Shown piece by piece: positions 18,258-63,922 of a stretch of 64,000 bases of DNA. The stretch lies in contig NZ_JARRAG010000002.1 of NCBI RefSeq assembly GCF_029589435.1, positions 2,046,001 to 2,110,000 on the forward strand, written 5' to 3'. The DNA comes from Paludisphaera mucosa (GTDB lineage: Bacteria > Planctomycetota > Planctomycetia > Isosphaerales > Isosphaeraceae). A model generated the notes under the pieces. That model made no database searches. It was not told where the DNA came from and was given only the letters and a program-made list of their open reading frames with translations. Position numbers and translations under genes: made by a program. Each line of letters starts with the position of its first letter. Positions within the stretch are counted from its first letter, which is position 1.

Positions 18258-20495
18258 TCAGATCTCGCGAGAGGCCGTGCGGTGCGGCGACGGCATCGCG
18301 GGCGTCGGCGTGTTCGCGTCGCGGCGGAGCACCTCCACCTGCTTCGCGGAGATGTCGGGCTGGGCCTCGCCCAGGTCGCGGGTGAAGAAGACGGCCATCG
18401 ATCGATCGCGGAGGTCGTAGATGTAGCCCCCCTCGGCGACGAGCGGCTCGGTGTCGTCGGCGAAGGTCTCCAGGACCCGCCGCCAGACCTGCCCCTCCTT
18501 GGTCTCGGGCAAGGTGAACGGGATCGCCTCGTGGTGGGCGTTGAGCAGGATGAGTGCCGTGTCGTCGACGATGGGCTCGCCGCGCTCGTCGACGTCGCCG
18601 ATCAGGTCGCCGGCCAGCCGCACGCCCAGGCACTTGACGAACCCGGCGTCCCAGTCCTCGTCGGTCATCTCGACGCCGGACGGCACCAGGAACGAGATGT
18701 CCTTGATCTCGGAACCGCGGAGCGCGCGGCCCTGGAAGAACTTCCGGCGCTGGAAGACCGGGTGCTCGCGGAAGATCAGCGCGACCCGGCGGGTGAAGTC
18801 GAGGAATCGCTTCTGGTCGTCGTCGAGCTGCCAGTTGAGCCAGGTCAGCTCGTTGTCCTGGCAGTAGGTGTTGTTGTTGCCCTTCTGGGTGTGGCCGATC
18901 TCGTCGCCGGCCAGGAGCATCGGGACGCCCTGCGAGAGCATCAGCGTCGTCATGAAGTTCCGCATCTGACGCTGGCGGAGGGCGTTGATCTCGGGATCGT
19001 CCGTCGGGCCCTCGGCCCCGCAGTTCCACGAATCGTTGTTGCCGGCCCCGTCGCGGTTCTCCTCGCCATTGTCCTCGTTGTGCTTCTCGTTGTACGAGAC
19101 GAGGTCTTTAAGCGTGAAGCCGTCGTGGCAGGTGATGAAGTTGATGCTGGCGTAGGGGGCGCGGCCGGTCTGCTGATAGAGGTCGCTCGAGCCGGTGAGC
19201 CGGGTGGCGAACTCCGACACGGTGCCGCCGTCGCCCTTCCAGAAGCGGCGGACGTTGTCGCGGTACTTGCCGTTCCACTCGGTCCAGAGGACGGGGAAGT
19301 AGCCGACCTGGTAGCCGCCGGGCCCGACGTCCCAGGGCTCGGCGATCAGCTTGACCTGCGAGAGGATCGGGTCCTGGTGGATGATGTCGAAGAAGGCGCC
19401 GAGGCGGTCGACCTCGTAAAGTTCGCGGGCGAGCGTGCTGGCCAGGTCGAACCGGAAGCCGTCGACGTGCATGTCGACGACCCAGTACCGCAAGCTGTCC
19501 ATGATGAGCTGAAGCACGTGGGGCTGGCTCATGTTGAACGTGTTGCCGCAGCCGGTGAAGTCCATGTAGTAGCGGGGATCTTCGGGGCTGAGGCGGTAGT
19601 AGCCGGCGTTGTCGATCCCCCGGAACGAGAGCGTCGGCCCCTGCTGCTGGCCCTCGGCCGTGTGGTTGTAGACGACGTCGAGGATGACCTCGATGCCCGC
19701 CGCGTGCAGGGCGCGGACCATCATCTTGAACTCGCGGACCGCCGCCAGGGGGTCGCCGGGCTGGGTCGAGTAACGCGGGTCGGGGGCGAAGAACCCCAGT
19801 GTGTTGTAGCCCCAGTAGTTGACGCGGCCCTTGTCGGTGAGGAAGCGGTCGTCGATGTGATAATGGATCGGCAGGACCTCGACGGCCGTCACGCCCAGCG
19901 ATTTGAGGTGCTGGATCGCCCCCTCGGAGGCGAGCCCGGCGTAGGTGCCGCGGACCTTCTCCGGGACCTCGTTCATCAATTTCGTGAAGCCCTTGACGTG
20001 GACCTCGTAGATGAACGTCTTGTGCCAGGGGACGAGGGGCGCGCGGTCGTCTCCCCAGGTGAACGAGGTGTCGGCCACGGCGGCGAGGGGCGCGAACGCG
20101 GCGCTGTCGCGTTCGTCGAAGGCCAGGTCCTGGTCGGCGGCGTCGAGCGGGTAGCCGAAGAGCGAGTCGTCCCACTTCAGGTCGCGGCCGATCGCCTTGG
20201 CGTAGGGGTCGAGCAGCAGCTTGTGGGGGTTGAACCGCTTGCCGGTCGCCGGGTCGTGATCGCCGTGGACGCGATAGCCGTAGAGCTGGCCGGGGACGAC
20301 GTCGGGCAGGTACTGGTGCCAGACGTTCGCCGTCTGCTCCCGCAGCGAGACCGTCCTCGATTCCCGAGTGGCGTCCGGACCGTCGAACAAGCAGAGCGAC
20401 ACGCGTGATGCGTTCTCCGCGAACAGGCTGAAGTTCACACCGGCTCCGTCCCAGGTGGCTCCGAGGGGGAATGGTCGGCCAGGCCAGACGCGCAT
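18258..20495 (-). CDS. glgX: Glycogen debranching enzyme GlgX
   Basis: Isoamylase-type GH13 enzyme that hydrolyses alpha-1,6 branches of glycogen. The 745-residue protein begins [25 protein letters not shown] with the E-set domain typical of GlgX; AAGGA lies a few bases before this ATG, which is why I prefer it to longer in-frame starts. Barrel motifs are [13 protein letters not shown], nucleophile in [10 protein letters not shown], acid in [16 protein letters not shown] and [22 protein letters not shown]; the last is a GlgX/TreX hallmark. With TreY just downstream and TreZ nearby, it likely supplies linear dextrins for trehalose production. Its start is divergent from the histidine kinase gene at 20734. 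Confidence 0.95.
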
Positions 20496-20669
20496 GAAAA
20501 GGATCCTTCGATTGGCGAGTGGGTGGGCGGGAGCGTCCGCGAGACGCGACGGACGTCGTCGTCGCCTCCTGTGAACGGGTTCGGCCAGCGTATAGGCAAA
20601 CCGCGCGCCATGGACGACGGTCGCTTCGCGTCGAAGCGATCGGTCGGACGCCTCCCGTACCGGATTTGC

Positions 20670-20675
20670 TACCAT
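20670..20675 (+). promoter_or_regulatory. Extended -10-like element before the histidine kinase
   Basis: TTTGC followed by TACCAT at 20670-20675, 64 bp before the kinase ATG. The same TGC-TAnnAT or GC-TAnnAT layout recurs before other genes here (25808, 38347, 62898). No -35 match is evident. Confidence 0.35.
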
Positions 20676-20733
20676 GGATCCCGCCCGACTCGCGGGTTGA
20701 TCCTTTCTCGGGACCTCGAACCCTGGTGGTCGG

Positions 20734-21843
20734 ATGGCGGATGCGGAACCGCGGGATCGATCTCCGGATCCGGCACGGGCCTTCCGGGAGCTGGCCGAGG
20801 CCGTCGACCTCCTGGTCGCCGTCGCACGGACGGGTTCCGGCGAGGTCGTGTATCTCAACCCGTTCGCGGAGCGGTCGACGGGCGTGGCGGCGGCCGAGGT
20901 CCTCGGCCGGGGCTTGGCCGAGACGCTGATCCCCCCGGAGGACCGGGCCGCCTTCCAGGATGCGTGCGATCGCGCGATCCGCGAAGCGTCGGCGACGGAA
21001 CGGGACGGGGTCGTCCGCCGCCGCGACGGCTCGCTGCGGATGATGCGCTGGGCGTTGCGGGCGATCGACGACGGCCTCGGCGGCGGGGCCCCGGCCCTGT
21101 TGATCGTGGGCCGCGACGTCACCGACCTGGGACGGGCCGAGGAGCGGCTGCTCCAGGCCGAGCGAATGGCGGCGATCGGACAGATGTGCGCGGGGCTCGC
21201 CCACGAGAGCCGCAACGCCCTCCAGCGCAGCCAGGCGTGCCTGGAGATGCTGGCTCTCCAGGTCGAGGATCGGCCCGCGGCCGTCGACCTGATCGGCCGC
21301 CTCCAGCAGGCGCAGGACGATCTGCACCGCCTCTACGAGGACGTCCGCGAATTCGCCGCGCCGATCCACCTGGACTTGCAGCCCTGTCGGCTCGACCAGG
21401 TCTGGCGTCGCGCCTGGACGAACCTCGGCCGGGCCCGCGCCGGCCGCGACGCCCTCCTCGTCGAGGCCGCCGAGGCCGAGGCGCTCGACTGCGCGGTCGA
21501 CGCCTTCCGGCTTGAGCAGGTGTTCGCCAACCTCTTCGACAACGCCCTGGCGGCCGCCCCCGGATCGGCGAGGGTGGAGGTGGCCGTCTCCGTCGTCGAG
21601 CCCGAGGGCCGGGGCGAGGTCCGGATCGTCGTGCGCGACGACGGGCCGGGCCTGACCCCCGAACAGCGCGCCCGGTTCTTCGACGCCTTCTTCACGACCA
21701 AGACGCGGGGGACCGGCCTGGGCACGGCCATCGTCAAGCGGATCGTCGAGGCCCACGGCGGCCGCGTGGAGGTCGGTGCGTCCGCTTCCGGCGGGGCCGA
21801 GGTAATTTTGACGATCCCCCGCGGCCCCGGGCCGGACGCCTGA
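20734..21843 (+). CDS. PAS-domain sensor histidine kinase
   Basis: A soluble 369-residue kinase with no membrane segment. Residues about 17-135 are a PAS domain ([30 protein letters not shown]). The dimerisation/phosphoacceptor helix contains [12 protein letters not shown] with His157. The ATPase domain has the N box ([10 protein letters not shown]), the G1 box ([24 protein letters not shown]) and the G2 box ([18 protein letters not shown]). No response regulator follows directly. The last 50 coding bases and the first 23 bases after its stop closely match the junction in front of the ANTAR regulator at 25929, which suggests the two genes were once adjacent. Confidence 0.93.
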
Positions 21844-21866
21844 ACCGATCGCACCGCGCCGCCGCG
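21793..21866 (+). repeat. Copy A of a kinase-regulator junction repeat
   Basis: Matches 25882-25955 without gaps at a constant offset of 4089 bp; my hand count is 55 of 74 identical. It covers the end of the kinase gene ([11 protein letters not shown] and the TGA) plus 23 bases beyond. Beyond the stop, the sequence would read LNRSHRAA where the regulator reads MIRSLRIA, so it looks like a decayed regulator start with ATG changed to CTG. Confidence 0.7.
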
Positions 21867-21879
21867 AGCATCGAGGTCG

Positions 21880-22545
21880 TTATGACCGGGCGGCCGCCGT
21901 CGGGGCCTTCCGCCGAGCCCAGCCGGCGGCGGCCAGCAGGCCGACGCCGCTGAGCGACAGCAGGACGCTCGACGGTTCGGGGACCGCCGTACCGGACCCC
22001 ACCACCTCGAAGGTCCCCGGCGCGAACGACAGGACGCTGCTCGGATAGCTGACGCCCGACCCCGACAGGAGCATGGTGCCGGGTCCCATCACGAAGGTGA
22101 TGGGGACCAGCCCGGGCGCCGCGTTGGACGCGACCGAGTAGCCGATTCGCCCCAGCGAGACGGTCTGGTTCGCCGCGACGGTCACGAATCCGTCCAGCGA
22201 CGTGCTGAGATCGGACACGTTCACGAAGTTCGCCGGGAGGGGGTCGAAGCTGAGAGTGCCCGTCCCCTCCGAACCGAAGACGAAAGCGGCGACGGACGTC
22301 GCGTCGTCCACGGACGTCATCCAGACGCCGGGCCCGACCTGGATGTCGATCGAATAGGCCGAGAGGGTGCGGTCGGGGGCCGAATCGTTGGTCAGCAGCA
22401 CCTCGAAATAGCCCGTCCCGCCCTGATTCGCCACGACGGCCGTAGTCGTCACCACGAATCCGGCGCGGCACGGCGCGTCGGCCAGGAACAGGGCCAACAC
22501 GGCGGGCGCGAGCGAGAACAGCGTACGTCGGAAGATCTTTAGCAT
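21880..22545 (-). CDS. PEP-CTERM surface protein
   Basis: A 221-residue exported protein. It has a signal peptide (MLKIFRRTLFSLAPAVLALFLADAP), a beta-rich body (VVTTTAVVANQGGTGYFEVLL, SLGRIGYSVASNAAPGLVPI) and a C-terminal sorting tail: VPEPSS, a hydrophobic stretch (VLLSLSGVGLLAAAGW) and a final ARRK cluster. Exosortase systems recognise this tail, cut near the PEP and transfer the protein to the envelope. AGGTG precedes the ATG at 22545, chosen over an upstream in-frame ATG. No exosortase gene is in this window. It is on the opposite strand from the kinase, 36 bp after its stop. Confidence 0.88.
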   Translation of the reverse strand: MLKIFRRTLFSLAPAVLALFLADAPCRAGFVVTTTAVVANQGGTGYFEVLLTNDSAPDRTLSAYSIDIQVGPGVWMTSVDDATSVAAFVFGSEGTGTLSFDPLPANFVNVSDLSTSLDGFVTVAANQTVSLGRIGYSVASNAAPGLVPITFVMGPGTMLLSGSGVSYPSSVLSFAPGTFEVVGSGTAVPEPSSVLLSLSGVGLLAAAGWARRKAPTAAARS

Positions 22546-22662
22546 GGAAGCACCTCGGTCGTCGAGTAGTCTATGGTTCATGTCGGGATGAATGGAAGTC
22601 GTGGTGAAATGGGGGCGGGCCGGCCGCCCCCACTCCCGGACGATGCGTCGGCCTGCGGGGCC

Positions 22663-25404
22663 TCAAACGATGGGCGGCAAGGTCGAACGGAACCGGCGAC
22701 GCGAGGCGTTGACGTCGTCGAGATCGACGTCGCCGTCGCCGTCGAGGTCGGCGAAGACGTTGCCCGCCGCGGCCAGGAGGATCGCCCGGCTGTCCATGAT
22801 CGTCACCACGCCGTCCTGGTCGAAGTCGCCCGGCAGCACGTTGAATCGCAGCACCTCGTCGCCGAGGATCGAGAGCACCAGGCGATCGGGACCGATCGTC
22901 CGGTCCAGGGTCCAGGTCGCGGTCATCGTCGACGGATCGTAAGCGAACGCCGCGATGGGGTAATTCGCGACGTTGATCCCGGTCAGCGACAACGAGCCGA
23001 TCGACAGGTTGGCCGGGCTGTTGAAGGAGAACGAGATGGCGTTGATCGTCGTCCAGGGCAGGACCTGCGTGTTGGTGAGCAGCGAGTAGGATCGGCCGCC
23101 GTACAGGACCTTCACGTCGGCGACCGACGGCAGGGGCAGGACGTTGACCGTCACGGTCGCCTCGTTGGAGATGGCCCCGTCGTCGTCGCGGACCGTATAC
23201 CGGAAGGTGTCCGACCCCGAGAAGTCGGCGTTGGGCGTGTACGTGACCGCACCGGTCGTCGGGTCGACGCTCGCCGTGCCGTGGGAAGGCGCCAGGGCGA
23301 TGACCACCGACGCGGCGATCACCGTGCCGTCGACGTCGATGTCGTTCGCCAGCGGGTTGATCACGATCGGCGTGTTGAGCGGGGTGGTCGCGGCGTCGTC
23401 CCGGGCGATCGGGCGGGAGTTGGGCAGGGTTCCGACGTCGATCAGGCCGCCGTCGACGCCCTGGGTGAAGTCGAAGAAATTGTCGTACGGGTCGACGTCC
23501 TGGACCTGATACGTGACCGAGCCCCCGCCGAGGGTGGCGTAGAGCTGCTCCAGCAAGGTCGGATCGTTCGTGTAGAAGAAGCCCGTGTCGACGGTGTTGT
23601 CCCGGAATCCCCCGCCCGGGTTGCGGGAGATCAGGATCTCGCCGTCGCCCGTGGTGCTGACCGTGGGGACGTCGCTGAAGTCGCCGATCTGGACGCCGTT
23701 GACGAGCAGGAAGTTCTGGCCCTGGTCGTCGAAGTCGCCCACGCCGGTGTCGCCGTCGTAGAGGGTCACGCGGAGCGCCGCCTCGGCCAGGCCGCCGCCG
23801 AGCGCGGCGAGCAGCTCGGCGCTGAAGTTCGTCTGGATCCCGATGGTCCCGGGGTTGCCCCGATACGCGACCGGGGTGCCGTCGTTGAAGAATCCGACGT
23901 AGAGGCTGCTGGCGGCGAGCTGGCTCACGACTCGGACGCCGTTGACGCCGATCAGGTCGAGGACCAGGCCTCCCACCGGGGTCACGCCCGAGGGGAGCGT
24001 GCCGCCGCTCGTGGGCGACGTCAGGGTCGACGAAGTCGGCTGCACGACGATCGCCACGCTCGCGACGTTCGACACCCCGCCGTATCCGTCGTCGATGGTG
24101 TACTGGAAGCCGTCCGTGCCCAGGTAGCCCGGATCGGGCGTGTAGACCAACGCGCCGACGAGGTTGTTGAAGGCGATCGTCCCGTGGCTCGGCGGCGTCA
24201 CGACCGAGATGCTGGACGGATTGAGGAAGTCGCCGTTGGGGTCGAAATCGTTGGCAAGGAGGCCGTTGACCGCGATCCCGAGCCCGGCGTCCGCCAGCAG
24301 GCTGTCGTCCGCGGCGACCGGCGCCTCGTTGAGCTGGACCTGCAGGCTCACCGTCGCCACGTTGGAGACGACCCCTTCGTTGTCGTTCACCGTGTAGGTG
24401 AAGCTGTCGGGGCCCGTATAGCCGGCGTCCGGAGCATAGTAGACCTCGCCGAAACTCCCGAGCGTCACCGTTCCATGCGTCGGCGGCGTCACCACGGCGT
24501 AGGAGGACGTGTCGATGAAACCGTCGGGGTCGTAGTCGTTGAAGTAGAGGTAGAGCGTATTCGGCCGGCCCTCGATCGCGGTGTATACGTCATCGTTCGC
24601 GACCGGCGCCTGGTTGGGGGCGACCGTCAGGTATGCCGTGGCGACGTTCGAGACCTCGCCGAGATCGTTCTGCACCGTGTACTGGAAGCTGTCCGATCCG
24701 ACGAAGCCCGGGTCCGGGGTGTAGAGCTGGTAGCTGTAGGAATCGAACGCGCCGAGGATCGTGTCCGGCGCGCCCGCTCCGACCGTATTGTCGATCCAGG
24801 CGATGTAGGGCGTGAACTGCGGGACGCTCGGGATCGGGTACGAATCGACGGCGCCGGGGTTGAGCGTCCCGCTGAAGCTGTAGTCGTAGATCGACGGATC
24901 GAAGTTCGAGAAGTCGCTCACGCCGAGGCGTACGTAGAGGGTGTAATCCCCGAACTCCGAATGGGAGCCTCCGAAGGACGTATCGAAGCCGCCGGACACC
25001 TTCAGCTCGATCCCCGCGTCGCCCTGGGAGAATGCGCCCAGCCCCGAGGCGGTCCCGCTGCCGACGGGGCTGCCGTCGAAATCGTACGTGTAGAGGAAGC
25101 TGGAACTCTGGGTCGACAGCGAGCCTTCGCTCGGCCCCGAGACGATCTGGATCGACGAGCGATCGATGGGCCTCGCGAAATCGTAATCGTTCGCCAGGAC
25201 GTCCACGACCTCGGGCTGATCCACGCGGATGTTGAAGAAGTCGTCGGAGGCGACCGGCGACAGGCAGATGCGTTCCTCCAGGAACTCGAGGCGGAACGCC
25301 CTGGCCCGGGAACGTCGTCCGGGGGCGGGTCGATCAAAGCCGGGCCGACCGGATGGACTTCCCCCGGTTCGGTGTCGGAGGCGACGGGGAGTGGATCCGA
25401 ACAT
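22663..25404 (-). CDS. Large Ig-like/cadherin-like surface protein with dockerin-type end
   Basis: A 913-residue surface protein. After an Arg-rich leader comes FRLEFLEERICLSP, which resembles the LEPR-XLL motif at the start of many planctomycete surface proteins. The body repeats a roughly 90-residue module marked by APVANDDVYTA or APVAADDSLLA, DYDPDGF or DFDPNGD, VVTPPTHGTV and FTYTVNDNEG: tandem Ig-like/cadherin-like (VCBS-type) domains, at least five by eye. The end has two calcium loops, DFDQDGVVTIMD and DLDGDGDVDLDD, as in type I dockerins. Start at 25404 is supported by AGGAG eight bases upstream. It probably acts in adhesion or surface-complex assembly. It lies 117 bp upstream of the PEP-CTERM gene on the same strand. 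Confidence 0.88.
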   Translation of the reverse strand: MFGSTPRRLRHRTGGSPSGRPGFDRPAPGRRSRARAFRLEFLEERICLSPVASDDFFNIRVDQPEVVDVLANDYDFARPIDRSSIQIVSGPSEGSLSTQSSSFLYTYDFDGSPVGSGTASGLGAFSQGDAGIELKVSGGFDTSFGGSHSEFGDYTLYVRLGVSDFSNFDPSIYDYSFSGTLNPGAVDSYPIPSVPQFTPYIAWIDNTVGAGAPDTILGAFDSYSYQLYTPDPGFVGSDSFQYTVQNDLGEVSNVATAYLTVAPNQAPVANDDVYTAIEGRPNTLYLYFNDYDPDGFIDTSSYAVVTPPTHGTVTLGSFGEVYYAPDAGYTGPDSFTYTVNDNEGVVSNVATVSLQVQLNEAPVAADDSLLADAGLGIAVNGLLANDFDPNGDFLNPSSISVVTPPSHGTIAFNNLVGALVYTPDPGYLGTDGFQYTIDDGYGGVSNVASVAIVVQPTSSTLTSPTSGGTLPSGVTPVGGLVLDLIGVNGVRVVSQLAASSLYVGFFNDGTPVAYRGNPGTIGIQTNFSAELLAALGGGLAEAALRVTLYDGDTGVGDFDDQGQNFLLVNGVQIGDFSDVPTVSTTGDGEILISRNPGGGFRDNTVDTGFFYTNDPTLLEQLYATLGGGSVTYQVQDVDPYDNFFDFTQGVDGGLIDVGTLPNSRPIARDDAATTPLNTPIVINPLANDIDVDGTVIAASVVIALAPSHGTASVDPTTGAVTYTPNADFSGSDTFRYTVRDDDGAISNEATVTVNVLPLPSVADVKVLYGGRSYSLLTNTQVLPWTTINAISFSFNSPANLSIGSLSLTGINVANYPIAAFAYDPSTMTATWTLDRTIGPDRLVLSILGDEVLRFNVLPGDFDQDGVVTIMDSRAILLAAAGNVFADLDGDGDVDLDDVNASRRRFRSTLPPIV

Positions 25405-25807
25405 GCTCAGACTCCTGGCTGGTGGATGCAGTGCGTCGGCGTCCCGAATGCAACGTAATACTAAGGAATGCATTCGGAAAACAGTTGTTTTGTTCTGCCA
25501 AGAGCAATACCATGGGAACATGATGAAAACAAGTCAAGGGTGCAGCTAATCTATTTAATTATTTTAATTCAAAGTCCGCAGATTGTTTGAATCATTTAAC
25601 CAGCATTGGGCGTTCGCAGCCCGATCGAACGGCCGTCGCGGAACCGGCTCGAGGTCCGCCGGCAAGGAAGTTCGCGACTCGCATCCTCGCGGGAAGGACG
25701 GGCCGCGGGAGAGGAGACGGAGCCAGTGCGGCTCGTGGGCCGAAATCGATCGCGACGTCCATCTTCGCGACGCGCGGGCGCCAGGATCTTCGCCTGCGCG
25801 GATCTGC

Positions 25808-25813
25808 TACAAT
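25808..25813 (+). promoter_or_regulatory. Extended -10-like element before the ANTAR regulator
   Basis: CTGC then TACAAT (five of six matches to TATAAT with the TGn extension), 121 bp before the preferred ATG. The -35 region has no clear match. Confidence 0.4.
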
Positions 25814-25818
25814 CGAGA

Positions 25819-25841
25819 CGGCCGGCGTCTTGAGCCGGCCG
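25819..25841 (+). promoter_or_regulatory. Leader hairpin of the ANTAR regulator gene
   Basis: CGGCCGGC (25819-25826) pairs perfectly with GCCGGCCG (25834-25841) around the 7-nt loop GTCTTGA. If transcription starts about 7-12 bases after the -10-like element at 25808, this hairpin is at or near the 5' end of the transcript. ANTAR proteins bind RNA hairpins, so autoregulation is possible, but the known ANTAR targets have six-nucleotide loops in pairs, and only one hairpin is visible here. Confidence 0.4.
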
Positions 25842-25875
25842 CTTCCACGCCTAGATCCTGATTCAATGCGAAAGG

Positions 25876-25932
25876 ATGGCGGGGGCCGTGTGGACCCTGA
25901 CGATCCCCCGAAGCTGGGGGCCGGACGCATGA
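25876..25932 (+). pseudogene. Relic of a histidine-kinase C-terminus (or 18-codon leader peptide)
   Basis: The frame ATG to TGA reads MAGAVWTLTIPRSWGPDA; its end matches the end of the kinase at 20734 ([11 protein letters not shown], then TGA). The TGA overlaps the regulator ATG as ATGA, the classic coupling of a kinase-regulator operon. Position 25882-25955 is the second copy of the junction repeat described at 21793. Upstream of 25882 the similarity stops. It may be a dead remnant; because AAAGG precedes the ATG and the stop overlaps the next start, it could also serve as a translated coupling leader. Confidence 0.55.
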
Positions 25933-26522
25933 TCCGATCGCTCCGCATCGCCGTCGCAGACGACGAGCGCGACATGCGCGACTACTTCCAGGCGATCCTG
26001 CCGCGCCTGGGCCACGTCGTCGTGGCCGCGGCGAGCGACGGCGCGGAGCTGATCGCGGCCTGCCGCGCCGCCACGCCCGACCTGATCATCACCGACGTCA
26101 AGATGCCCGTGATGGACGGGATCGAGGCGGCGCGGCGGATCTACGAGGCGACCCCGATCCCCGTCATCCTCGTCTCGGCGCACCACGACGCCGAGGTCCT
26201 GGAGCGGGCCGAGCAGGAGCACGTCCTCGCCTTCCTGGTCAAGCCGATCAAGCAGGCCGACCTCGAGCCGGCGATCACCGTCGCCATGAGCCGTTTCGAG
26301 CAGTTCCAGGCCCTGCACAAGGAGACCGCCGACCTCCGCCAGGCGCTGGAAGATCGAAAACTCATCGAGAGGGCCAAGGGCCTCCTCATGAAGCGCACGG
26401 GCCTCGGCGAGCACGACGCGTTCCGGAGGCTCCAGCGGCTGGCCAGCGACCACAATCGCAAGCTGGTCGAGGTCGCGCTGATGATCCTGACGGCCGACGA
26501 GGCCTTCCGCATCGACGCCTGA
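25929..26522 (+). CDS. ANTAR-domain response regulator
   Basis: A 197-residue receiver plus RNA-binding antiterminator (AmiR/NasT class). The receiver has the acidic pocket in RIAVADDERDMRDYF, the phosphoacceptor in DLIITDVKMPVMDGIEA, the Ser of VILVSAHHD and the conserved Lys in FLVKPIKQADL. A coiled segment (QFQALHKETADLRQALEDRK) leads into the ANTAR domain: LIERAKGLLMKRTGLGEHDAFRRLQRLASDHNRKLVEVALMIL. Such regulators let polymerase read through terminators by binding RNA hairpins. The ATG at 25929 starts right at the receiver; an in-frame ATG at 25866 would add 21 residues with no fold. No kinase gene is adjacent; the likely partner is at 20734. Confidence 0.93.
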   Translation: MIRSLRIAVADDERDMRDYFQAILPRLGHVVVAAASDGAELIAACRAATPDLIITDVKMPVMDGIEAARRIYEATPIPVILVSAHHDAEVLERAEQEHVLAFLVKPIKQADLEPAITVAMSRFEQFQALHKETADLRQALEDRKLIERAKGLLMKRTGLGEHDAFRRLQRLASDHNRKLVEVALMILTADEAFRIDA

Positions 26523-26537
26523 GACGGACGGATCGGC

Positions 26538-28949
26538 TCAGACGCGATCCGAGTCGCGTGCCCGCGATCGAAGGTCGAGCGGGGCCATGCGACGGGGACC
26601 GTGGTAGATCGACTTCGCGGGGGCCGAGGCCGGCGCGGCGACGGCCCGCCGCTTGCGCCACCATCGCGGCAGGGCCCGCCGGAGGTGGACGACCGAGGCC
26701 GTGACGAACAGGACGCCGATCGGGAGGTCGAACGCCGATTGTTCGACGACCCCCCTGGATGGGCCGTCGCCGTTCGGGTCGACGGCCTCGGCCAGGGCGA
26801 TCACCCGGCCGTCGAGCCGATCGCCGGCGGCGATCGCCGCGACCGGCCCGGCGAGGGGCTCGGGCCCGTCGACCAGCCATCGCAGCCCGCTCCTCACGGC
26901 CTCGACCACGCGGTCGGCGCGCCGGAGCGCCGCGTCGTCGGCGTCTCCCTCGGAGGCGGCGACCTTGACGGCGTCGTCGCGATTGCTCGGCTCGGCAGCG
27001 TCCTCGACGAACCCGGCGGGTCCTCTGGAAGCGCCGTCGTCGGCCTGCACGTTCGAACTCAGCACGAGACTCGACGCCAGCCCATTGAGGCCGACGCCAG
27101 GACCGCCCCAGGCGACGGCGTTGAGCCCGCCCGGCACCGTCGGTCCGACGGCCGCGACGCCGTCGCCGTTCGTCGAGGGTCGGCCGACCAGCCCGGAGCC
27201 GTTGTTCGCGACGTAGGCCCAGGGCGAAGGCCCCATGGGGAACCCGGCGGCCGAGGCACTCCCCGGAACTTCGACCGGAGGACGCGGAGGGCTCGGCGTG
27301 GGGGTGGTCGCGCCGGGATCCGCCCCCAGGCGGAGGCTGAGGGCGCCGTTCGAGCCGATGGCGTTCCCGATCAGCGAGTCGGAATGGCCTCTCGTCAGGA
27401 TCCAGGTGGCGACCAGCGGCGCGTCGCCGGCGGCCGTCAGGCGGAGGACGTACGAGCCGGGGCCGAGGACGAGGGGAATCGCACTGGTCAAGGATGCGGA
27501 TCCCGACTGCAGTACGCGAAGGCCGCCGTCGAACACCTCGAACCGGAGCGATCCGCCTGTGAGGTTCACCCCAAGCGATAGGAGGGCGTCGCCGTCCATC
27601 TGGACGAGGGGCGAATCGTCGGCGATCACGAACGGAAACTCGGTCGACTCTCCCGGCGCTAGCGTGATGACGCCGCCCCCGAGGCTGACGTGGCGGGCTA
27701 CCTTGAATTTCGAGCCCTCTTCCGGCGAGACGGTCCATCGGGCGAGAGTCCCGGCGGGCACACCGTCCGCAACCGGGATCCGACCGATCAGGTCCGCGAT
27801 CGGTGCGTCGCCCGAGGCGATGAGGCTGTAGCTTCCCGCCGCCAGCGACTGGATGAGTTCGTCCCCGTCCGGCAGCCGTTCGACGAACTGGAAGGCGACC
27901 CGCTGGAGGCCGGGGTCCACCTTCGTAAGCTCCACGAGATGCGCGCCTCCCCGGCCGTCGACGACCCGGATGGCGTCGGTCAGCAGTCGGGACGGATCGA
28001 CGGCCGACGAGAATGCGATGGTGAAACCGGTCACCGCCCCGTCGGTCCGGTCGAGCGTGAAGTCGGTCACGCGGGCCGGCGCGGTCACCGGGTCGGCGAC
28101 GAGATCGAGCTGGAACGCCCCGCCGGGCCGTCCTTCCGACCGGCTGACGACGACCACGTAATCGCCCGGGGCCAGCCCGACGAAAAGGTATGGGTCGTTG
28201 GGATAGGCGAGCGGGAGGTTGGCGCCGAAATGGGTGGCCGCGACGTCGTTGCCGGCTTCGTCATAGACCTTCAACTCGGCGTTCAGGGGGCTTCCGATCC
28301 GCTCTGCATCGAGCTGGAGCCCCAGTTGCCAGAGCTCCCGCCCCGCTCCCAGCCGGATCCGGTAGGCGGCGAAATCGGTCCCGGAGTTCGTCAGGTTTCC
28401 CTGCACCCTAAGGACGGCGGGGCCGAGAAGTCCCAGGTCCGCCGCGCCGGCGGAACGATCCGGCGCCTTCACCTCGAACTCGGCGACGACGTGGTCCTGG
28501 GTCGCGTCCCAGCCTTGTTGGGAGAGGGCGGCGGACCGGGAGAGGGCGGCGGACAGCGGGCCGCCGCCGATCAAGGCGAGGCGGTATCGTCCGGGTTCCA
28601 GGGGCCCCTTCAGGGGGAGCGACACGGTCCCGGCCGCATCGTCGATCACGCCGGCGACGGAGTTGTACCCGTCGAAGATCGGCGTCTCCGAGCCGTCGGC
28701 CTCGATGCGTGAGAATGCGACGTTGTAATCCGCCCAGATAGTGGAGGGATTTGCGTTGAACCTGAAGATCAGCGCGTCGGGCGCGTTCGCGGCATCGACG
28801 ACGTCGCCGTCGGCGGGCGTGGTCCGGAGGTCGCCCGACGACTGGGCCGCCGCGACGATCGCGACGCCCGCGGTCGTCGACGGCGTGCGACGACGTTCCA
28901 GACGCTCCATCCCGGCACCGTTCCAGCGAAAGCTCTGCTGCGTCTTCAT
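26538..28949 (-). CDS. Large exported protein with LEPR-XLL-like start and C-terminal membrane anchor
   Basis: An 803-residue protein of unknown function. The N-terminus (MKTQQSFRWNGAGMERLERR) resembles a degenerate LEPR-XLL motif. The body looks like several beta-sandwich domains of the pre-peptidase C-terminal (PPC) type: RLGAGRELWQLGLQLDAE, FVGLAPGDYVVVVSRSEGRPGGAFQLDLVAD, and LVLGPGSYVLRLTAAGDAPLVATW. A glycine/proline-rich linker follows, then one hydrophobic segment (FDLPIGVLFVTASVVHL) and a basic tail (RRALPRWWRKRR), the positive-inside end of a membrane anchor. It is 53 bp downstream of the matrixin gene on the same strand, so the two are likely co-transcribed. Its stop is 15 bp from that of the convergent ANTAR gene. 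Confidence 0.75.
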   Translation of the reverse strand: MKTQQSFRWNGAGMERLERRRTPSTTAGVAIVAAAQSSGDLRTTPADGDVVDAANAPDALIFRFNANPSTIWADYNVAFSRIEADGSETPIFDGYNSVAGVIDDAAGTVSLPLKGPLEPGRYRLALIGGGPLSAALSRSAALSQQGWDATQDHVVAEFEVKAPDRSAGAADLGLLGPAVLRVQGNLTNSGTDFAAYRIRLGAGRELWQLGLQLDAERIGSPLNAELKVYDEAGNDVAATHFGANLPLAYPNDPYLFVGLAPGDYVVVVSRSEGRPGGAFQLDLVADPVTAPARVTDFTLDRTDGAVTGFTIAFSSAVDPSRLLTDAIRVVDGRGGAHLVELTKVDPGLQRVAFQFVERLPDGDELIQSLAAGSYSLIASGDAPIADLIGRIPVADGVPAGTLARWTVSPEEGSKFKVARHVSLGGGVITLAPGESTEFPFVIADDSPLVQMDGDALLSLGVNLTGGSLRFEVFDGGLRVLQSGSASLTSAIPLVLGPGSYVLRLTAAGDAPLVATWILTRGHSDSLIGNAIGSNGALSLRLGADPGATTPTPSPPRPPVEVPGSASAAGFPMGPSPWAYVANNGSGLVGRPSTNGDGVAAVGPTVPGGLNAVAWGGPGVGLNGLASSLVLSSNVQADDGASRGPAGFVEDAAEPSNRDDAVKVAASEGDADDAALRRADRVVEAVRSGLRWLVDGPEPLAGPVAAIAAGDRLDGRVIALAEAVDPNGDGPSRGVVEQSAFDLPIGVLFVTASVVHLRRALPRWWRKRRAVAAPASAPAKSIYHGPRRMAPLDLRSRARDSDRV

Positions 28950-31014: not shown

Positions 31015-31557
31015 TCAGCCCTGGGGGGCGGCCTTCACCGGGGCCAGAGGAGCCGGGGCGAACTGGGGGGCCGGGGCGACCTTCGCAGGGGCCTGGGGCG
31101 CGGGAGCGATCTTGGCCGGGGCCTGGGGCGCGGGAGCGACCTTGGCCGGGGCCTGGGGGGCCGGAGCGATCTTGGCCGGGGCCTGCGGGGCCGGAGCGAT
31201 CTTGGCCGGGGCCTGCGGGGCCGGGGCGATCTTGGCCGGAGCCTGGGGCGCCGGGGCGATCTTGGCCGGGGCCTGCGGGGCCGGGGCGATCACAGGGGCC
31301 GGGGCGACCTTCGAGGGCGCCTGGGGGGCCGGAGCGATCTTGGCGGGGGCCTGCGGGGCCGGGGCGATCTTGGCCGGAGCCTGGGGCGCCGGGGCGATCT
31401 TGGCCGGGGCCTGCGGGGCCGGGGCCACCGAGGCGGGCGTTAGCTTGGACGGCACCTGAGCGGTCGGCAGGATCTTGCTCGGAGCGGCCGGCGTCGCCTT
31501 GTGATGGAACAGTTGGCCCGAGACACTCAGGGCAACAACTAGAACCGCACTGGTCAT
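31015..31557 (-). CDS. Secreted proline/alanine decapeptide-repeat protein
   Basis: A 180-residue protein: a short hydrophobic N-terminus (MTSAVLVVALSVSGQLF) followed by almost pure Pro/Ala/Gln/Lys sequence. Residues 45-160 are eleven copies of APAPQAPAK(I/V), one of which has APSKV, interrupted once by APAPVI. Such extended, evenly charged Pro/Ala rods are typical of cell-wall-spanning linkers, but no attachment domain is visible and I assign no function. GAGGA lies eight bases before the ATG at 31557, which I prefer over longer in-frame starts. Cytosine-rich codon use simply reflects the repeat. Confidence 0.7.
   Translation of the reverse strand: MTSAVLVVALSVSGQLFHHKATPAAPSKILPTAQVPSKLTPASVAPAPQAPAKIAPAPQAPAKIAPAPQAPAKIAPAPQAPSKVAPAPVIAPAPQAPAKIAPAPQAPAKIAPAPQAPAKIAPAPQAPAKIAPAPQAPAKVAPAPQAPAKIAPAPQAPAKVAPAPQFAPAPLAPVKAAPQG
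31078..31425 (-). repeat. Tandem 30-bp coding repeat
   Basis: Eleven 30-bp units plus one 18-bp partial unit, in frame with the decapeptide APAPQAPAK(I/V). Neighbouring units are nearly identical, and blocks of two to three units recur (for example around 31220-31290 and 31355-31425), which points to recent duplication. Copy number is likely to vary between strains. Confidence 0.9.
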
Positions 31558-42409: not shown

Positions 42410-43984
42410 TCAGTTGCAGCTCAGGCAGCTCGGGACCATCACGGGGACCGACGTGGTCTGTTGCACCGCCACGGTCCGGGGGACGTAGCGGGCGACCACC
42501 CGGCTCGTCGTGACGGGAACCTGCTCCGCCACGCATACCGGGACCTGACGACTGGCCGTCTCGGCGACCATCCGCGTCTGGGTCACCGGGACTTCCTCGA
42601 CGCGTTCTTCATTCACGTAGCTGCACGTCGTCACCGGGGTCGTTTCGACGCGTTCCTCGGCGACGTAGCGGCAGGTCTGGACCTCGTAGGGCTCGACCCG
42701 CTCCTCGGCCACGTAGCTGCACGTAGTGACCGGGATGGTCTCGGAACGCTGCTCGGCGACCATCTCGCAGGTGCGGACCTCGTAGGGCTCGACCCGCTCC
42801 TCGTTCACGTAGCTGCACGTCTGGACCTCGTAAGGCTCGACGCGTTCCTCGGCGACGTAGCGGCAGGTCTGGACCTCGTAGGGCTCGACCCGCTCCTCGG
42901 CGACGTAGCGGCAGGTCGTGACGGGGTTCGACTCGACGCGTTCCTCGGCGACGTAGCGGCACTGGGTGACGGGCACCTGGCGGACCATCGACTCGCGGAC
43001 GTACCGGGTCTCGCTCACGTCCCGGATGACGGGCCGCGACACGAAGACCCGCTGGCTGACCGTGCGAGGCGGGCACTGGACGGCGACCGTCGCGGTGACC
43101 TTCTTCTTGTGCAGGCACCCCAGCAGGCCGCGAGGCTTCTCGTAGCCGCAGGCGTCGCATTCCGTGACGGGGACTCGCACCTGGCGTTCGACGACCGGGC
43201 CCGGAATGGTCGTATACTGCCGCTCGAAGTAGCCGGTCTCGACGACTTCCTGGCGGACGGTCGTCACCGGTCGGCAGACCGTGTAAGGCTGCTCGACCAT
43301 GACGGTCTCGGTCACCGGCCGCATCACCGTGTAGCGACGTTCCTGGTTGACGGTCTGATAGACGGGTTTGGTGACGGTGTACCGCCGCTCGCGACGCTCG
43401 GTCTGGTACACCGGCTTCATGACGGAATAGCGGCGTTCCATCTTCTGCGTCTGGTAGACGGGTTTGGCCACCGAGTAGCGCCGCTCCATCTGCTGGGTGC
43501 GGACGACCGGCTTCATGACCGTGTACTTGCGCTCCTGGTTGACGGTCTGATAGACGGGCTTGGTGACGGTGTAGCGCCGCTCGCGACGCTCGGTCTGGTA
43601 CACCGGCTTCATGACCGAGTAGCGACGTTCCTGGTTGACGGTCTGATAGACGGGCTTCGCCACCGTGTACTTGCGCTGGACGTAGGAGGTCTCGGTGACC
43701 GGCCTCATGACGGTGTAGTTCTCCGTCTGGAAGGCCGTGCGATACCGGGTCTCCATGACGGTGACGGGCTCGCTCTCGTACACGGTCTCGTAGACCGTCT
43801 GGTAGACGGTCTGCACCTGAGGGGCCAGTGCGACCACGCTCAGCTGCGTCGCGACGACCGGGGACGGGGCGCAAGAATGGCAGGCCCCGCCTCCGTAGGT
43901 GGCCCAGGCGGGCGAGGCGGACCCCGCCAGGATGGCGGCGGCCGCTCCGGCGGCCAGGCGCACGGCTCTCAAGGACTTGAACAT
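42410..43984 (-). CDS. YTV-repeat cell-wall protein
   Basis: A 524-residue secreted protein with a signal peptide (MFKSLRAVRLAAGAAAAILAG, cut near PAWATYGG). Residues about 70-260 repeat a unit of about 18-19 residues, such as YTVTKPVYQTVNQERR and YSVMKPVYQTERRERR, the YTV signature of planctomycete wall proteins. A Cys-rich hinge (CDACGYEKPRGLLGC) follows. The second half repeats an 18-residue unit with one Cys per turn: TCRYVAEERVEPYEVQ, seven to eight copies. Evenly spaced Cys suggests disulfide cross-links between or along solenoids. It ends VPSCLSCN. AGGAG lies seven bases before the ATG at 43984. Confidence 0.88.
   Translation of the reverse strand: MFKSLRAVRLAAGAAAAILAGSASPAWATYGGGACHSCAPSPVVATQLSVVALAPQVQTVYQTVYETVYESEPVTVMETRYRTAFQTENYTVMRPVTETSYVQRKYTVAKPVYQTVNQERRYSVMKPVYQTERRERRYTVTKPVYQTVNQERKYTVMKPVVRTQQMERRYSVAKPVYQTQKMERRYSVMKPVYQTERRERRYTVTKPVYQTVNQERRYTVMRPVTETVMVEQPYTVCRPVTTVRQEVVETGYFERQYTTIPGPVVERQVRVPVTECDACGYEKPRGLLGCLHKKKVTATVAVQCPPRTVSQRVFVSRPVIRDVSETRYVRESMVRQVPVTQCRYVAEERVESNPVTTCRYVAEERVEPYEVQTCRYVAEERVEPYEVQTCSYVNEERVEPYEVRTCEMVAEQRSETIPVTTCSYVAEERVEPYEVQTCRYVAEERVETTPVTTCSYVNEERVEEVPVTQTRMVAETASRQVPVCVAEQVPVTTSRVVARYVPRTVAVQQTTSVPVMVPSCLSCN

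Positions 43985-62968: not shown

Positions 62969-63922
<954 letters not shown>

Follow-up and report, generated by a model that had tools for sequence, protein, structure and literature searches.

Signalling partners are commonly assigned by the adjacency of their genes, and the locus described here raises the question of how such a pair came apart and whether its members still work together. In a 64,000-nucleotide stretch of the Paludisphaera mucosa genome (hereafter the window), a histidine kinase gene and a receiver-ANTAR response regulator gene are separated by an insert of 4 kb; adjacency is lost, and it is the scars at both ends that identify the former partner. The locus is a well-preserved, unusual rearrangement of ordinary parts (Table 1). 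The kinase matches HATPase_c at E 9e-27 and HisKA at E 2e-4, the latter below the curated cut-off; we counted the dimerisation/phosphoacceptor domain and the ATPase domain as both present, and AHESRN, read from the sequence, is presumably the phosphoacceptor motif. The regulator carries a receiver and an ANTAR domain, with matches to Response_reg at E 3e-25 and to ANTAR at E 2.5e-21.

Table 1. Features of the separated kinase and regulator genes and of the DNA between them (positions in the window)
Feature	Position	Strand	Basis
Leader of the kinase; an extended -10-like element, TGCTACCAT (20667-20675), lies 58 bases ahead of the start codon	20662..20733	+	alignment to the G001 kinase leader
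Histidine kinase, 369 aa; PAS and HATPase_c domains	20734..21843	+	Pfam
Kinase-side junction copy: true kinase end, then decayed regulator start (from 21840, ATG now CTG)	21793..21866	+	55/74 identical to 25882-25955
Insert gene 1: 233-aa protein with PEP-CTERM anchor motif	21880..22581	-	Pfam PF07589
Insert gene 2: 952-aa adhesin-like protein with bacterial Ig/cadherin-like domains	22663..25521	-	Pfam Big_9, Cadherin_4, Cadherin_5
Probable second kinase-leader copy, with TGCTACAAT (25805-25813) and ATGGCGG	25799..25882	+	second-best match to the kinase leader of G001
18-codon remnant frame MAGAVWTLTIPRSWGPDA; own ATG at 25876, TGA (25930-25932) overlapping the regulator ATG	25876..25932	+	translation
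Regulator-side junction copy: relic kinase end, then true regulator start	25882..25955	+	55/74 to kinase-side copy; 56/74 to G001
Receiver-ANTAR response regulator, 197 aa	25929..26522	+	Pfam Response_reg, ANTAR

An ancestrally coupled pair, an empty site and a duplicated junction

In a relative of the same genus (G001), the kinase and regulator orthologues overlap by ATGA with nothing between them, and the flanks match the window on both sides of the pair, which makes this an empty syntenic site. Among the listed matches of at least 150 bases between G001 and the window with its two 10-kb flanks, this locus is the only spot where consecutive G001 pieces overlap while the window has kilobases between them. 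A first-pass annotation of the window had predicted that relatives would hold an intact, ATGA-overlapping pair without the insert; G001 has it at the same place, and it is the usual state among 77 related regulator loci. Genes that had never been neighbours would have spoken against that annotation, and the two are adjacent in G001 and in most relatives examined. In a search for the regulator, 62 of 297 genomes of the class gave a match at E <= 1e-50. We counted a kinase of this type when a profile match had its stop at most 120 bases upstream or at most 40 downstream of the regulator start. Such a kinase stands directly upstream in 64 of the 77 loci and overlaps by exactly four bases in 52 of these 64; three others are cut off at a contig edge but still show a kinase tail, and ten have no kinase. 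Because of the empty site in G001, the 64 upstream kinases and the 52 exact overlaps, we conclude that kinase and regulator were coupled ancestrally and came apart later at this locus. Six genomes of the genus were compared: the kinase is found at E <= 1e-30 in three, and the split only in the genome of the window. A related-locus search listed 80 loci, none of them titled as a planctomycete.

The junction itself is present twice. The two copies align without gaps at an offset of 4089, and a recount gives the 55 of 74 identical bases reported before. A BLASTN comparison of 20501-22600 with 25401-26700 returned 82% identity over 56 bp at E = 1.6e-11, the next match being at E = 0.096. Ungapped 74-base segments of the plus strand share on average 21.6 bases with the regulator-side copy (sd 4.0), and the highest count elsewhere in the window is 38 for the plus strand and 41 for the minus, so that 55 is better than chance for GC-rich kinase ends. 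The corresponding junctions of 24 relatives (G026 is omitted, its contig being too short) share 56 bases with this copy in G001 and 18-40 in the other 23. Translation agrees with the relics first proposed: on the kinase side, the true kinase end and its stop are followed by LNRSHRAA with CTG as first codon, and on the regulator side LTIPRSWGPDA ends in a TGA within the ATGA that opens MIRSLRIA. Beyond the 74 bases, identity at the same offset drops to background, and the gap-free similarity is therefore short. The copies flank the insert as direct repeats and have a single counterpart in G001. When the two copies and G001 are compared over the 74 columns, 45 are alike in all three and 2 are common to none, while 10 are common to both copies against G001, 11 to the regulator-side copy and G001, and 6 to the kinase-side copy and G001. 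These counts and the single-copy state in G001 suggest a duplication on the window's own branch, after its split from G001.

The insert had been read as two minus-strand surface-protein genes, and Pfam places both proteins in surface-protein families; these were the only families among their matches, with no transposase or integrase. The two genes (21880-25521) are a recurrent two-gene module in the family. Among the matches listed for the five other genomes of the genus, no DNA match to the cassette exceeds 183 bases. Searches of solved structures gave weak matches only, with a best E of 2.1 for the 233-aa protein and 0.11 for the adhesin end. The adhesin end looks dockerin-like by eye, and Pfam gives no dockerin match there; because of this, a role of the PEP-CTERM protein and the adhesin as anchor and partner is only a guess. 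The recurrence of the pair is seen in all 13 loci of the small PEP-CTERM protein that were viewed (L075-L083 and L172-L175; L084 and L085 were left out), each with a stretch resembling the adhesin end close beside that protein.

Origin of the split

We favour, with a probability of about 0.68, a tandem duplication of the whole promoter-kinase-regulator unit, followed by complementary losses and the arrival of the cassette between the copies, which would leave two transcription units. The ancestral unit would have consisted of a promoter followed by kinase and ANTAR regulator genes with an ATGA overlap, and a tandem duplication would have doubled it. Of the regulator in the first copy only the first codons would then have survived, and of the kinase in the second only the start codon and roughly the last 15 codons, and the two-gene surface-protein cassette would have come between the copies in opposite orientation. 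One operon would have become two transcription units, leader-kinase and leader-remnant frame-regulator, each presumably transcribed from its own leader; we infer this order of events and their timing after the split from G001. In duplication-degeneration-complementation, two copies keep complementary parts. The two copies here would do the same, but with a two-gene operon as the duplicated unit and with whole genes as the parts that complement each other. The literature listings searched show nothing on a split kinase-ANTAR arrangement, which is not to say that none has been described.

The case for a duplicated unit, rather than a duplicated junction, depends on the leader-like stretch that precedes the remnant frame. 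In the kinase leader of G001, TGATATAAT is followed by 58 bases and ATGGCGG, and the kinase of the window likewise starts with ATGGCGG 58 bases past its own element; before the regulator, TGCTACAAT and ATGGCGG are 62 bases apart. The TGNTANNAT pattern has only three occurrences in the window and, with both strands counted, 15 in 484 kb; it is commoner in the loci of relatives (27 in 327 kb). The similarity was first seen by eye and tested afterwards, and the absolute E-values are weak: when the G001 kinase leader was searched with nhmmer against 84 kb, the true leader came first (E 0.083) and 25801-25882 second and at full length (E 0.18), and against 484 kb the values were 0.48 and 1.0, with the next match at 18. 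When alignments were anchored at each of 24,418 start-like codons, the site ranked third, after the true leader and one unrelated site. With the start-codon bases removed, it ranked fourth in the anchored test and was no longer among the top eight nhmmer matches; even the true leader came only fourth in that list. The window's own kinase leader does not recover it: local alignment with the region before the regulator scores 21, a value that 168 of 500 shuffles reach, and in the anchored test in 484 kb the site is not among the best six. The leader of a second relative, G004, shows no resemblance to it, with 168 of 1356 controls as good. A consensus scan of 20400-26600 for promoters and terminators found none. 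A GC-rich hairpin follows the -10-like element in all four leaders compared, and we give it little weight because a hairpin with 5 or more pairs turns up in 24% of 40-base stretches taken at random. The similarity starts only near 25799; consequently, the DNA ahead of the -10-like element gives no support to a longer duplication. Taken together, it is likely, though not certain, that the regulator-side copy keeps the promoter-like leader of the kinase, and such a copy would favour duplication of the whole unit, complementary loss and a surface cassette between.

The leader also bears on the course first proposed, a tandem duplication that then lost its middle. In the main, that course is supported by the intact pair in G001 and among most of the 77 related loci, with one refinement. 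One continuous loss of the middle would be insufficient if the leader and start codon were copied: with a second leader and kinase start in the second copy, the regulator body of the first and the kinase body of the second would have to be lost separately. The two copies probably did lose their parts separately.

The main rival, to which we give clearly less credence, is a single insertion of the 4-kb cassette at the kinase/regulator overlap, in which some 75-90 target bases were duplicated through a staggered break with fill-in or through template switching and the promoter-like element arrived with the cassette. The restriction of the gap-free similarity to the junction is what this would produce, the stop codon of the PEP-CTERM gene (21880) lies no more than 15 bases from the end of the 74-base copy, and the cassette is a recurrent module. 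Against it, a second leader-like stretch with ATGGCGG at the same spacing would be a coincidence, and the insert proteins have no Pfam match to a transposase or integrase. A far less probable course is that the kinase was lost first, leaving leader, remnant and regulator, and was later regained alongside from a relative together with the cassette. G004 shows that a kinase can be lost at this locus while the -10-like element and the regulator are retained, but its leader is unlike the remnant leader and it has no recognisable kinase tail; moreover, the kinase and its upstream flank in the window form one continuous match to G001, and the divergences of kinase, regulator and flank are similar in size. 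Two further readings, a chance resemblance between GC-rich kinase ends and an error of assembly, can be dismissed, for although the sequence is GC-rich and weak matches are common, the junction identity far above background and the syntenic empty site exclude the former, and against the latter copies that differ by 26% are no misassembled repeat and the locus lies within a 5.27-Mb contig with surroundings that align with G001.

The remnant frame before the regulator

Under whole-unit duplication with complementary loss, the regulator would have kept a short upstream reading frame from the lost kinase copy. A frame that starts with ATG within 120 bases and ends in ATGA is present here, as at 86 of 1400 comparable ATGA sites (6%). 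Among overlapping gene pairs studied elsewhere for termination-reinitiation, 13 of 14 tested cases were strictly coupled (PMC6728339). The present arrangement is like ATGA pairs of that kind in that an upstream stop overlaps the regulator start by four bases, and unlike them in that what lies upstream is no full gene but 18 codons left from a lost kinase copy. It is plausible from the sequence that the remnant frame helps to start translation of the regulator, by still feeding ribosomes to it through termination-reinitiation. The locus also lends itself to testing whether what is left of a lost upstream gene is retained for initiating downstream translation.

A stronger version would hold that the promoter, start and last codons of the kinase copy are maintained under selection as the 18-codon frame, the regulator being poorly translated unless a ribosome terminates in its ATGA; we regard this as doubtful. 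If true, gene loss inside coupled operons would leave translational platforms behind. Two cases look alike, yet most kinase-less relatives with ATGA lack an ATG-started frame. One is the G004 regulator, which is preceded by an ATG-started 14-codon frame ending in ATGA; the other is a second regulator copy (L207, G019:C609:400-5000), perhaps an independent kinase loss, where the kinase body is missing and the ATGA overlap is preceded by an open kinase end some 49 codons long. An ATG-started frame as a rule for kinase-less regulators was considered and rejected: five kinase-less loci have a regulator starting in ATGA and sequence ahead of it (L008, L206, L207, L220 and L239), and the frame is found only in G004 (L008).

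Probable signalling between the separated partners

The first-pass annotation predicted that the kinase at 20734 still signals to the regulator at 25929. This appears likely, because the two are sole orthologues, the regulator is not accelerated and the contact regions are kept. Each gene is the only close orthologue in the P. mucosa genome, where the kinase is the sole match at E <= 1e-30 and the next best match to the regulator is only 39% identical. Against their G001 orthologues, the kinase is 72% and the regulator 85% identical; in the DHp region of the kinase 5 of 64 sites differ, compared with 99 of 303 in the rest. The regulator has 4 unique changes versus 7 in G001, and the branch lengths are 0.10 for the window, 0.12 for G001 and 0.44 for G004. 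In OmpR, receiver helix alpha1 and the beta5-alpha5 loop set kinase specificity (PMC2991266). At 18 contact sites in these regions (residues 13-25 and 106-110, picked after the changes in G004 had been seen), the regulator of the window departs from the consensus at 11%, the same as G001.

The relative that lost its kinase behaves differently. In G004 (L032, regulator at C33:5422-6012) the kinase is gone from the same locus, and the regulator, with 25 unique changes versus 4 in that of the window (chi2 15.2), has evolved about four times faster. Eight of the 25 changes fall in the 18 contact sites, which were chosen post hoc (hypergeometric p = 4e-4; 2e-3 when only the receiver is considered). 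As a general consequence of losing the kinase, drift of the contact region was considered and set aside: it is strong in G004, but a comparison of 10 kinase-less with 68 other regulators, in which the three contig-edge loci with a kinase tail and the regulator of the window were placed in the kinase-bearing group, gives only a trend (one-sided p = 0.056). In three kinase-less loci (L220, L248 and L249) the contact sites are no more changed than in the median kinase-bearing regulator. G001 with its pair intact, the window with its pair moved apart and G004 with its kinase lost form a natural series for the kinase-contact surface of the regulator.

Pairs of the EutW/EutV type resemble this one in combining a PAS-sensor kinase with a receiver-ANTAR regulator (PMC3369931), and the genes are adjacent in most relatives examined here. 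In contrast to those pairs, the genes here lie 4 kb apart with duplicated junctions. If the kinase still phosphorylates the regulator, then by analogy with EutV the phosphorylated regulator would dimerise, bind paired RNA hairpins and prevent transcription termination.

Further observations concern places away from this locus. An array of 30-base repeats at 31063-31425 aligns in many registers with G001 and G004, and two arrays of 48/96-base repeats, at 42596-43763, flank a point near 43.1 kb. Starting at 63922 and reaching about 5.1 kb past the window end (L171), some 5.2 kb are present here versus about 0.2 kb in G001.
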